Of a DNA stretch of 35,358 bases, positions 13,743 to 18,621 are shown in pieces. The stretch lies in the NCBI GenBank assembly GCA_002712285.1, contig PATC01000027.1, positions 1 to 35,358 on the forward strand, given 5' to 3'. The notes beneath the pieces were generated by a model. It ran no database searches, was not told where the DNA came from, and worked only from the letters and a program-made list of their open reading frames with translations. Positions within the stretch are counted from its first letter, which is position 1; each line of letters starts with the position of its first letter. The position numbers were made by a program, and so were the translations under genes. Source of the DNA: Methanobacteriota archaeon (GTDB taxonomy: Archaea; Thermoplasmatota; Poseidoniia; Poseidoniales; Thalassarchaeaceae).

Positions 13743-14603
13743 TCAGGACCCGATCACTTTGACTCTAGTTCGTAGTTGTGCAAGACGTGTGTTCAAGTGG
13801 CCGAAAGAAAATGCCAGCATATCTGTGAAATGAATCACGGGAATACTGGTATCTAATCCGGTAATCCTTGATGCCTTTACTTGATAGATATCTAGGACTG
13901 CATGGGATAGATTACAGATGCTCACGAGTAATTCAGCACCTTCATCGACTGCTTCGGATAAGACACCAGCCGCCTGTTTCAACGCAGTAGACTCCTCGGA
14001 AAGCAGGCTTGGAACGCCTACACTCTGGGTCCTACTGACTAGAGAAATTGGGGTGCCACCGATAACCTCGATTACATTTTCAAGATAATTCGGAAGGAAT
14101 ACGTCATCTGACCCACAAGCACCCTTTCGCTGGATATTGGGCCCATAGTATCCTGAAATTTTGAAGTCGAGAGGATTAACCACTTTTTCTTCGAGTTTTT
14201 CAAGACCGATATCTTCGACAATGACATGCATTAGGTGACGAACTTTCATCTCACCTGAGAACTGCATATTACATGTAGACTCCAATGTACGATTGACTTT
14301 AGCAAGCAAATCCGGATTACGCCGAAGTTCTTCCAAATCCTCACACAAGTTGCCTGCTGTTGCAGCGCATGGTGTTACGATTTCAAGACCCAATGCTTCA
14401 GCCATTGCGAATGTTCTAGCGTTCAAGGTCAATTGTAACCGACTATTAGCTTGTCGAATTATCCCGGCACCACAACTAGTAGCTCCTTCAAGAGGCACAA
14501 GATCAATTCCAAGTGAACGGGAGATTAATGGAATTGTATCCTCAACTTCCATAGCACTACTGTGAGCAACATTCCCAGGGTGATAGGCATAGGAATTGGG
14601 CAT
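13743..14603 (-). CDS. HdrB/SdhE-like CCG-domain protein with most Fe-S cysteines lost
   Basis: YAYHPGNVAHSSAMEVE...LGIDLVPLEGATSCGAG (family: YYPGC...CCG), YYGPNIQRK (family: YYGC), TQSVGV (family: CCG), ICNLSHAVLD (family: CPLC..NLD). Confidence 0.75.
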   Translation of the reverse strand: MPNSYAYHPGNVAHSSAMEVEDTIPLISRSLGIDLVPLEGATSCGAGIIRQANSRLQLTLNARTFAMAEALGLEIVTPCAATAGNLCEDLEELRRNPDLLAKVNRTLESTCNMQFSGEMKVRHLMHVIVEDIGLEKLEEKVVNPLDFKISGYYGPNIQRKGACGSDDVFLPNYLENVIEVIGGTPISLVSRTQSVGVPSLLSEESTALKQAAGVLSEAVDEGAELLVSICNLSHAVLDIYQVKASRITGLDTSIPVIHFTDMLAFSFGHLNTRLAQLRTRVKVIGS

Positions 14604-16855
14604 CAGAAACCACTTCCAATTTCATTGTAAATGGCGACTACTTCGTGATGATTATTCACTGGTGTATTGAACTGTTTAGGCATCTTACCCACTCCAGCAG
14701 GAGGGGCAATCATGCCTAGAAGCCCATTGAATACGCGCCCACCAGTTCGAGTGAAACCTAGCATCATCCTAGCAGAAATTCCTGAAGTGAGATTACTGAT
14801 CAAACCAATTGGGCCCAATACTTGGCGATAAATCACTGCATCATTCACCTTTCCACTCATTTTGACACTCCAACAATACCACCATACATGCTTCCCATGA
14901 CGTGAATCAGAAAAGGCACCATCTCTCAAAACAGATGTTTTGGCATCGAGCATGTGGCTTGAAATTTTCATACCAAGTTCGCCATTTCTTGAAATTGATG
15001 ACAAATCTGTTTCTGCCTTTATGCCGCCCACAGATGAAAGAGATTTCATGTGTTCAATTCTGTTCTTGTCTGACGTACGAGGGTCGGTAACTCTGGACCA
15101 AAGTGAAACAACATTTGAGGGGCCGATGTATGATTCATTGTAAGGCAAAGTATCTGAGAAGGAATCGACAAGTAAAGCGCTAGTGAAATCACGAATTTTG
15201 TGTATTTCAGTTGCTTCACTAGAGGACATTGACCCGATTACTCCTTGAGATAACTCTATGCCATCTCTAGTAGCACCATGGAACCAAGGCTTGAGAGATG
15301 AACGCTTGATATCATGGATGGATAAATCTACTACAAGATCTCGAATTACTTCTCCGCCTGTAAGAGGTTCAATGACTATTTTCCAAGAACCATTAACCGA
15401 GGATGCAATATCAGAAATCTTGGTTAATCCAGGTAATACATTACGTCCATTAACTGAAATTACGGTACATGGATCATTTGCTGGCCCATCACGGAAGGTA
15501 AGGGAGCCGTCTTCAGTGGCTTTCACTGTTCGAAGAAGCTGGAGAACCGACATATTTCCAGGGAGAACGCATGCCCACTCATCAGTTCCACTTTCTCTCT
15601 CTAAACAATCGTAACGAAATACTTGTACGTTGACTTGAAGCTCCTCTGACTCGAAGTTAGGGACGACAAAGCCATCATCTCCTTCAACAGCAACATCGTC
15701 TCCACCACTAAGTTCCTCAATGATGAGTTCAACCATTTCTGCTTGGAAGGTACCATTTCCATCTACTGCGGACATATGAGCTAGAGCTGATTCAGCCCAT
15801 ATAGCCGAGGGTGCGTCGTAATCGACATCACAATCCACACGGTCGACTAGTCTTGTTCCACCTAACTCTTCAAAGCGCTTATCCCATTCCTTACCAGATT
15901 CACAGAAGAGTTCGTAACTTGTATCTCCGAGTGCACATACGCTGAAATGAGTTTGGCTAAGTGATGGAGCACCGTCTGCATTAGCAGCAATCCAAAGTGC
16001 CTCTGCATTGTCAGGCTGCTCACCCTCGCCCCACGTGGAACAAACAATCAGGACGCGAGACATTCCTGATAGAGATGATACGTCAAATCCATCCATATCG
16101 TGCACTTTGGCATCAAGACCGTATGCCGAGGCACGTTTGCTAATCTTCGCAGCCAAGCCTTCAGAATTACCGCTCTGCGAACCGAATAGGATGTGTAATG
16201 ATCGATCACCCTCATGCATGAACACCTGGGTATCACTTCCTCCTTGAGCAGTAACCTTCGAACCGGCATCATCGGATGCGGGAGCGGGCGTATCTGATGC
16301 ATCTAATGACCCACCGGATGATACAAATTCAGAGATAGAGGACACTTTACCTTCTTGGAATACTCCATCTCCATCTACTGCTGCCATTCGTGGAAGGGCC
16401 ATTTCAGTCCAAGTGGCTGCAGGTTTGTCATAATCCACATCACAATCGACTCTATCCAGTAGCCTCTTACCGCCTAACTCTTCAAAGCGCTTATCCCATT
16501 CTTTACCAGATTCGCAAAACAACTCATAGCTCGTATCACCTAGAGCACAAACAGAAAAATTTGTTGAACTCAAGGCAGGAGCGCCATCTCCATTGGCAGC
16601 ATTCCAAAGATCTTCAGCATTGTCGGGTTGCTCGCCTTCACCCCATGTAGAACAAACGATTAGAACACGTTTCATTCCAGAAAGTGAGGCTATATCGACA
16701 TCACCCATATCATGAACTGTAGATTCTAAGCCATAGGAAGAGGCTTGCTTACCAATCTTAGACGCCAAGTCCTCTGAATTACCGCTTTGAGAACCGAAAA
16801 GGATGTTCAGAGTGCGGTCACCACTCGTCAGAAACTGAACCAAACCATCTGACAT
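14603..16855 (-). CDS. Fusion protein: two tandem CysJ/CPR-type flavodoxin domains plus SdhB-like domain lacking Fe-S ligands
   Basis: GSQSGNSE, STWGEGEQPDNA and LGDTSYELFCESGKEWDKRFEELGG occur twice; C-terminal VFRYD...SLTFRDG...VNGR...IVIEPLTGGEVIRDLVVD...SYIGPSNVVSLWSRVTDPRT is SdhB-like. Confidence 0.85.
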   Translation of the reverse strand: MSDGLVQFLTSGDRTLNILFGSQSGNSEDLASKIGKQASSYGLESTVHDMGDVDIASLSGMKRVLIVCSTWGEGEQPDNAEDLWNAANGDGAPALSSTNFSVCALGDTSYELFCESGKEWDKRFEELGGKRLLDRVDCDVDYDKPAATWTEMALPRMAAVDGDGVFQEGKVSSISEFVSSGGSLDASDTPAPASDDAGSKVTAQGGSDTQVFMHEGDRSLHILFGSQSGNSEGLAAKISKRASAYGLDAKVHDMDGFDVSSLSGMSRVLIVCSTWGEGEQPDNAEALWIAANADGAPSLSQTHFSVCALGDTSYELFCESGKEWDKRFEELGGTRLVDRVDCDVDYDAPSAIWAESALAHMSAVDGNGTFQAEMVELIIEELSGGDDVAVEGDDGFVVPNFESEELQVNVQVFRYDCLERESGTDEWACVLPGNMSVLQLLRTVKATEDGSLTFRDGPANDPCTVISVNGRNVLPGLTKISDIASSVNGSWKIVIEPLTGGEVIRDLVVDLSIHDIKRSSLKPWFHGATRDGIELSQGVIGSMSSSEATEIHKIRDFTSALLVDSFSDTLPYNESYIGPSNVVSLWSRVTDPRTSDKNRIEHMKSLSSVGGIKAETDLSSISRNGELGMKISSHMLDAKTSVLRDGAFSDSRHGKHVWWYCWSVKMSGKVNDAVIYRQVLGPIGLISNLTSGISARMMLGFTRTGGRVFNGLLGMIAPPAGVGKMPKQFNTPVNNHHEVVAIYNEIGSGF
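15743..16210 (-). repeat. Flavodoxin domain copy 2 of an intragenic tandem duplication (copy 1 about 16358-16816)
   Basis: Long identical protein blocks (RVLIVCSTWGEGEQPDNAE, FSVCALGDTSYELFCESGKEWDKRFEELGG, DRVDCDVDYD) recur in both halves. Confidence 0.9.
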
Positions 16856-16937: not shown

Positions 16938-18548
16938 TCAAAGGTCCATGCCGTCCATCATTCCCTGATCTCCAAGGCTGACTCCTTTTGATGAGATTAC
17001 ATCATCAATTCTAAGGATCATAGTGGCAGTCTCGGTAGCACTTTGGATTGCTTGCTCAACGACCCTAACTGGCTCCACGACATTTGCGTCTTTCATATCC
17101 ATAACGCCACCCTCGAATACATTAACGCCAAATGTCGACTTCCCCTCTGCGTGTGCTTTTCTGACATCGATGATCGTATTCACAGGATCGAGACCTGCAT
17201 TCTCAGCGAGGGTACGCGGAATGACTTCAAGAGCCCCTGCAAAGGCCTCAATCGCCATTTGCTCCCTACCTCCTACACCTTCTGCAAAGGTTCGCAGATC
17301 TCGGCTAAGTGCAGCAAGAACACTACCTCCGCCAGTCAATACTGCTCCATCTTCATGTGCAACACTGACTACACCAATCGCGTCATCGAAAGCACGGCGA
17401 ATCTCATCCACTACGTGGTCAGTTCCACCTCGAAGAAGTACACTTACGCTCTTTGCTTCATCACAACCAGTGAGGAAGACCATGTCAGATTCCCCAATTT
17501 TGCGCTCCTCGACCTTGTCACATCGGCCAAGGTCTTCTGAACTCAAGTCATCGATATTGGTAACGATTCGACCACCAGTGGCTTTCGAAAGAGCCTCCAT
17601 ATCCGACTTCTTAGCACGTCGGATGGCAAAGATTCCAGCCTTGGCCATGTAGTGTTGAGCTAAATCATCGATGCCTTTCTGACAGATGACTACATTAGCA
17701 CCGGATTCAATAATCTTATCCACTAGACCCTTGAGATAGCCTTCTTCCTCATCGAGGAATTGAGCCAGCATGTTAGGGTCAGTAATCTGAATCTTAGCAT
17801 CAACTTCCGTCTTCTTGACCTCAATTGCAGAATTAATCAGAGCAACTTGAGCGCCACTTACAGAACGGGGCATTCCACTATGAACTCGTTCCTTATCGAG
17901 AATGATTCCATCGACCAAAGTACTATCCTTAATCGAACCACCCTGCTTCTTCTCTACCTTGACATCATCAAGATCGACCATTATCTCGCCGTCTGACTCT
18001 GTAGCGACCTTGAGAACAGCATTCACACAAATCTCTGCAAGGAATGCCTTGACAGCCCCTGCACTCTTTCCAGTGAGAGCAGTCTTTGCCACTTCATGTA
18101 GCATCTCAGGATTAACGGGAATGGAATGATTGTCGAGAAGTTCAAGACAACGCTCGGCTGCTATCCTGAATCCTTCACAGATAATGGTCGGATGGACATT
18201 CTGCTCGATCAAATCCTCAGACCGCTTGAGCAATTCTCCAGCTAGTACGACTGCTGATGTAGTTCCATCGAAACAATGTGCCTCCTGAGTTTTAGCAACC
18301 TCGATAATCATCTTAGCCGCAGGATGTTCAATATCCATCTCTTTCAGAATAGTGGCACCATCATTGGTAATGATGACATCACCCATAGAATCAACCAACA
18401 TCTTATCCATCCCCTTGGGGCCAAGTGTTGTACGCACTGCATCGGCTACCGCCTTAGCTGCTGCGATGTTGTTACTCTGTGCAGTCTTCCCTCGACTGCG
18501 AGTCGTCCCTTCTTTGAGAATGAAGATTGGTTGTTGCCCTGATTGCAT
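16938..18548 (-). CDS. Thermosome subunit (group II chaperonin), start likely [17 protein letters not shown]
   Basis: [68 protein letters not shown]. Confidence 0.98.
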
Positions 18549-18621
18549 GATTATCGCTCCATCCGACATCCCGCCGACAAAGCATTGCGCCTTAAGGGCA
18601 CGGGAAAACAAGACGGGACCT

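Follow-up and report, generated by a model that had tools for sequence, protein, structure and literature searches.

What might be the function of a gene pair that joins two flavodoxins to half of a complex II-like scaffold in which the ligands of the iron–sulfur clusters are missing? The window, a contig of 35,358 nucleotides (C29) from an archaeal MAG that is 74% complete, carries such a pair on its minus strand, here called B' and E'. The ORF, Pfam and NCBIfam matches and a structural model together give the 750-aa product of B' (14603..16855) the order Fld1, Fld2, cluster-free SdhB and C-terminal extension. Fld1 (residues 15-160, 16376..16813), whose place is taken by a [4Fe-4S] ferredoxin in many relatives, and Fld2 (residues 218-365, 15761..16204), which was found in every relative read, are both CysJ-type FMN domains. 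They are followed by the beta-grasp half (Fer2_3, residues 405-520, 15296..15643) and the helical half (residues 521-645, 14921..15295) of an SdhB-like part, and then by an extension (residues 646-750, 14606..14920) that is strongly conserved and matches the tail of type-E SdhB. E' (13743..14603) encodes 286 aa with an SdhE/HdrB fold and overlaps the stop codon of B' by one base, all of these features being on the minus strand.

Pfam identifies Flavodoxin_1 twice (1.8e-63) and Fer2_3 (1e-10) in B', and CCG (3.5e-6) in E'. The best NCBIfam match of B' is CysJ (2.8e-87), with SdhB models covering residues 402-615, and E' is matched by HdrB/SdhE models (7e-37 and 3e-31). In the translated ORF both flavodoxins have intact GSQSGNSE, STWGEGEQPDNA and LGDTSYELFC motifs. 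The flavodoxins and the SdhB part are modelled confidently by AlphaFold2 and the tail with low confidence; in Foldseek searches with this model the top PDB matches are SdhB chains of complex II (TM ~0.8 on the target), and the B' flavodoxin matches the CysJ flavodoxin domain 1ykg with a TM of 0.92 and 40% identity. Motifs, NCBIfam and Foldseek thus agree on a CysJ-type fold with FMN-binding loops, FMN binding itself being predicted, and they bear out the earlier note, made from the sequence of this DNA, which had read the gene as two intact flavodoxins fused to an SdhB domain.

The gene order in both Poseidoniales families is ribosomal genes, helicase, E', B' and thermosome, and a comparison of gene neighbourhoods found no redox partner. 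The thermosome gene adjoining the pair (window 16938-18611) is listed with a TTG start that gives an N-terminal stretch absent in relatives (e.g. L037), and its true start is probably downstream. At L010:1498-4458 (+) the B' and E' genes are naturally fused and share a frame of 987 aa, as they do in the Red Sea MGII record L288.

The SdhB-like part retains the fold but lacks the Cys ligands of the [2Fe-2S], [4Fe-4S] and [3Fe-4S] clusters. Alignment to a type-E SdhB of a different Thermoplasmatota lineage (L065), in which the motifs are intact, shows that B' has none of the three ligand sets, as the earlier note had proposed, and no CxxC was found in the last 340 aa of B' at any of 100 loci, ferredoxin-bearing forms included. 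The AlphaFold2 model of E' is confident (pLDDT 89, pTM 0.88) and resembles HdrB in Foldseek (TM 0.86-0.88), but both of its CCG motifs (C..CC..CxxC) are broken in this genome. The loss of ligands ascribed to E' is correct for the cluster motifs, which are broken, but not for every residue: each CxxC retains a single Cys (C79 and C230), and so does the first CC. Sulfolobus SdhE has a [4Fe-4S] cluster, going by a citation in PMC5861303.

Across relatives, the second CCG motif of E' is lost in every aligned row, while the first has survived in g5 of one family and in g17 and g21 of the other, all of them deep branches, and is broken elsewhere. Two changes on the tree, together with an intact outgroup, suggest that the first motif was lost at least twice independently. 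Partner genes with an intact first motif occur at L020, L140, L188 and L194. C79 is retained in 98/98 E' partners, the C230 motif in 96/98 and H234 almost everywhere.

B' is present in 221 of 244 genomes of Poseidoniales (Marine Group II), including all 35 of those that are at least 90% complete, and E' occurs order-wide. Among nine listed MGIII-like members of the same class, E' had no match in eight and one weak match in the other. The dN/dS of the pair (~0.03-0.13) indicates strong purifying selection, and in one comparison the cluster-free SdhB part had a value of 0.09 and the tail one of 0.02. B'E' characterizes the order Poseidoniales as a whole and is more than a chance association, which bears on the conservation in relatives that the earlier note had asked about. 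A search of open-access papers turned up no description of this architecture. MGII have been reported to possess a canonical complex II, and RnfB in many families (PMC6336850).

The N-terminal place of B' is occupied by a [4Fe-4S] ferredoxin in many relatives and by a flavodoxin (Fld1) in others, and is empty in some. The ferredoxin form (Pfam Fer4_13) is a single [4Fe-4S] domain with all four ligand Cys, and the aligned loci of this type share the pattern CxxCxxC...CP. We mapped these states onto a tree built from Fld2, the SdhB part and E', with the N-terminal domain left out, and this tree follows genera. It requires a minimum of 23 changes between ferredoxin and flavodoxin (28 counting the empty state), a minimum that is not inflated by the biased sampling of contrasting genomes but would be inflated by errors in what is a quick tree. 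Ferredoxin is likely the ancestral N-terminal domain, as g5, g17 and g21, which branch deeply, all have it. Fld1 has several origins: in this genus it is a copy close to the genome's own Fld2, in g6 and g11 it is nearest to a reductase-fused flavodoxin, and there are others too. The earlier note had suggested that FMN domains replace Fe–S clusters. An exchange of ferredoxin for flavodoxin is indeed real, but it concerns the N-terminal domain only; it was not the SdhB clusters that the flavodoxins replaced, since ferredoxin-bearing relatives have an SdhB part just as devoid of them.

It is extremely improbable that these swaps are artefacts of assembly or binning. Most of the genomes are MAGs that are 60-95% complete, which would leave room for such errors, but the reading frames are uninterrupted, the remaining parts give a tree that follows genera, and both N-terminal states recur across many independent assemblies. 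The double flavodoxin is also present in records AG-422-I18 and AG-447-I14, which we take from their names to be single-cell genomes.

Loci with a lone Fld2 and no N-terminal carrier are L014, L016, L018, L132, L135, L154, L156 and L169, and six of the seven genomes of this type that were scored have a flavodoxin-reductase fusion. The name codes of records L249-L328 offer a hint only, from few cases: Pacific-type records tend to be non-ferredoxin, ETNP records ferredoxin and ALOHA records mixed. Ferredoxin is replaced by flavodoxin under iron limitation in phytoplankton and bacteria. We hypothesize from the sequence comparisons that the repeated exchange in B' is likewise tied to iron limitation, and that iron saving may have been its driver.

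The genome also encodes a candidate source of electrons for the flavodoxins, a 619-aa diflavin protein composed of Flavodoxin_1, FAD_binding_1 and NAD_binding_1 domains (Pfam). Matches to this diflavin/NADPH reductase query occur in 243 of the 244 Poseidoniales genomes and, among the matches listed, consist of the reductase module (FNR) alone (~430-450 aa) or with an N-terminal flavodoxin (~620 aa). The FNR and B' genes are not adjacent. On contig C6 a flavodoxin-reductase fusion lies between MBL-fold and biotin carboxylase genes (L036:8263-10122, +), and in L330-L332 the reductase stands alone there. FNR also occurs in MGIII-like members of the class and, because B'E' is missing there, must have other uses in them; it was not found in eight other Thermoplasmatota tested. 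As possible clients, sulfite reductase and P450 were each sought and rejected (0/31 genomes for both).

The state of the N-terminal domain is correlated with the remaining flavodoxins of the genome, in a trait table compiled manually from the match counts of the diflavin query, a search that short-chain flavodoxins may escape. A further CysJ-type flavodoxin was detected in 37/53 non-ferredoxin genomes versus 5/45 ferredoxin genomes (Fisher 3e-9), and a flavodoxin fused to FNR in 24/53 versus 0/45 (Fisher 2e-8). Phylogenetically independent pairs give the same picture, with 9.5 pairs in the same direction and 0.6 opposite, of 18, for the further flavodoxin (median p 0.008), and 7.3 versus 0 for the fusion (p 0.016). 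Ferredoxin-type genomes usually have only two matches to the query, FNR and B', as is the case in the single-contig genome G024, so that in most of them the B' flavodoxin is the sole CysJ-type flavodoxin detected. There was no extra flavodoxin in 16/46 double-flavodoxin genomes, perhaps in part due to MAG incompleteness. The FAD/NADP(H) module of a CysJ-type diflavin reductase is present in the genome, and the swap pattern links it, as a putative partner, with the flavodoxins of B'.

Could the pair instead be a working succinate- or fumarate-type complex, in which FMN domains have replaced the Fe–S wire that would connect an SdhA-like subunit with E'? The earlier note had correctly placed any SdhA-like partner outside the window, and the genome search that it proposed found a canonical SdhCAB on a contig different from that of B'E'. 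Another candidate, on C40, scores as a true NadB and was rejected as a partner. A third SdhA-like protein, A' (541 aa, contig C16, L070:3353-4978, -), occurs in both Poseidoniales families and not in MGIII; its gene order is kept, beside a clamp-loader-like ATPase gene (also in L337). A' is monophyletic but has no clear sister in the tree, and since the test does not reject its grouping with type-E SdhA (p-AU 0.145), descent from the same operon is no more than a possibility. The aligned members retain the Rossmann motif and mostly the FHPT His, but four of the five catalytic residues checked are gone, namely the covalent-FAD His, the RGEGG Arg, the HY His and the NRL Arg. As far as these alignments go, A' is a candidate partner of B'E' and nothing more. 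A conserved A' and the retained SdhB and SdhE folds are what a succinate/fumarate-type complex would call for, but no catalytic SdhA is encoded at the locus, A' lacks the catalytic His and Arg residues and goes undetected in some of the genomes that have B'E', the SdhB part lacks clusters even in ferredoxin-bearing forms, and the genome already has SdhCAB. We consider this function, which is how the hypothesis of the earlier note can be read, very unlikely.

Two further functions can be envisaged for a scaffold of this kind. B' and E', with A', may form an enzyme with a new catalytic site of its own, for example at C79, C230 and H234 of E', fed by the carriers. The near-invariance of C79 and the C230 motif despite cluster loss, the strong constraint on E' and the first CCG motif still intact in g5, g17 and g21 would fit such a site, and yet the neighbours (ribosomal genes, helicase and thermosome) supply neither a substrate nor an operon partner, so that we regard a new enzyme as rather unlikely. 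Alternatively, B' and E' may be structural or regulatory pseudoenzymes, such as a redox sensor, whose carriers sense NADPH or the iron state and pass no electrons. This would account for the disappearance of the inherited cofactor motifs and for the constant position beside thermosome and ribosomal genes. The flavodoxin motifs are intact, however, the N-terminal domain is always a redox carrier if present, and the swap correlates with other flavodoxins, all of which make a purely sensory or structural role distinctly unlikely.

The explanation that we tentatively favor, giving it slightly less than an even chance, is that B'E' descends vertically from the SdhB-SdhE half of a type-E complex II and persists as a relic, now a cluster-free scaffold for grafted carriers that acts as a split diflavin reductase. 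Because the swap tracks other flavodoxins, and because ferredoxin-type genomes mostly have only the flavodoxin of B', we infer that Fld2 and the separate FNR may together form a split CysJ-like reductase. The path of the electrons would run between NADPH, the FAD of FNR, the FMN of Fld2 and, as N-terminal carrier, a 4Fe-4S cluster or a further FMN, and would lead from there to clients. Against this count the FNR of MGIII-like genomes that lack B'E', the separate locations of the FNR and B' genes, and the double-flavodoxin genomes in which no extra flavodoxin was detected. B' and E' would serve as a docking scaffold, perhaps with A' as a degenerate SdhA-like flavoprotein, and in the deep branches one cluster on E' may remain as the end acceptor. 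It is possible, though on balance doubtful, that an entire complex II ancestor (A', B' and E') was stripped of its catalytic and cluster sites and kept as a modular chassis for interchangeable ferredoxin and flavodoxin plug-ins, with a separate NADPH reductase to drive them; it would then be an electron hub of an undescribed kind.

If the scaffold and split-reductase explanation is correct, a respiratory iron–sulfur module has been emptied of iron and yet conserved throughout an archaeal group that is among the most abundant in the surface ocean. The order would also provide a natural, repeatedly replicated experiment of ferredoxin versus flavodoxin at one fixed protein position, and iron-saving carrier exchange would become testable with phylogenetic replicates.

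B'E' resembles several known systems in part. With the type-E complex II of other Thermoplasmatota (SdhABE operon, e.g. L065) it shares the folds, the adjacency of SdhB and SdhE and the type-E SdhB tail, but it lacks the cluster motifs and an adjacent catalytic SdhA, and has a ferredoxin or flavodoxin plus a second flavodoxin grafted onto SdhB. E' has the fold of HdrB of heterodisulfide reductase, whereas both noncubane cluster motifs are broken in this genome. Heterodisulfide-type chemistry is thus not expected here, but may occur in g5, g17 and g21, the few deep branches in which one CCG motif is kept. As in CysJ and NADPH-cytochrome P450 reductase, a CysJ-type flavodoxin and a CysJ-type FAD/NADP module are present in the same genome; unlike in those enzymes, the two are on separate genes in many Poseidoniales genomes, the flavodoxin is carried on a complex II scaffold, and sulfite reductase and P450 are missing. 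Finally, the exchange in B' is similar to the iron-limitation swap of phytoplankton and bacteria in that an iron protein is traded for an FMN protein, but it differs in that the domain exchanged is covalently joined to the rest of the protein and sits at one position, and in that the tree calls for at least 23 changes.
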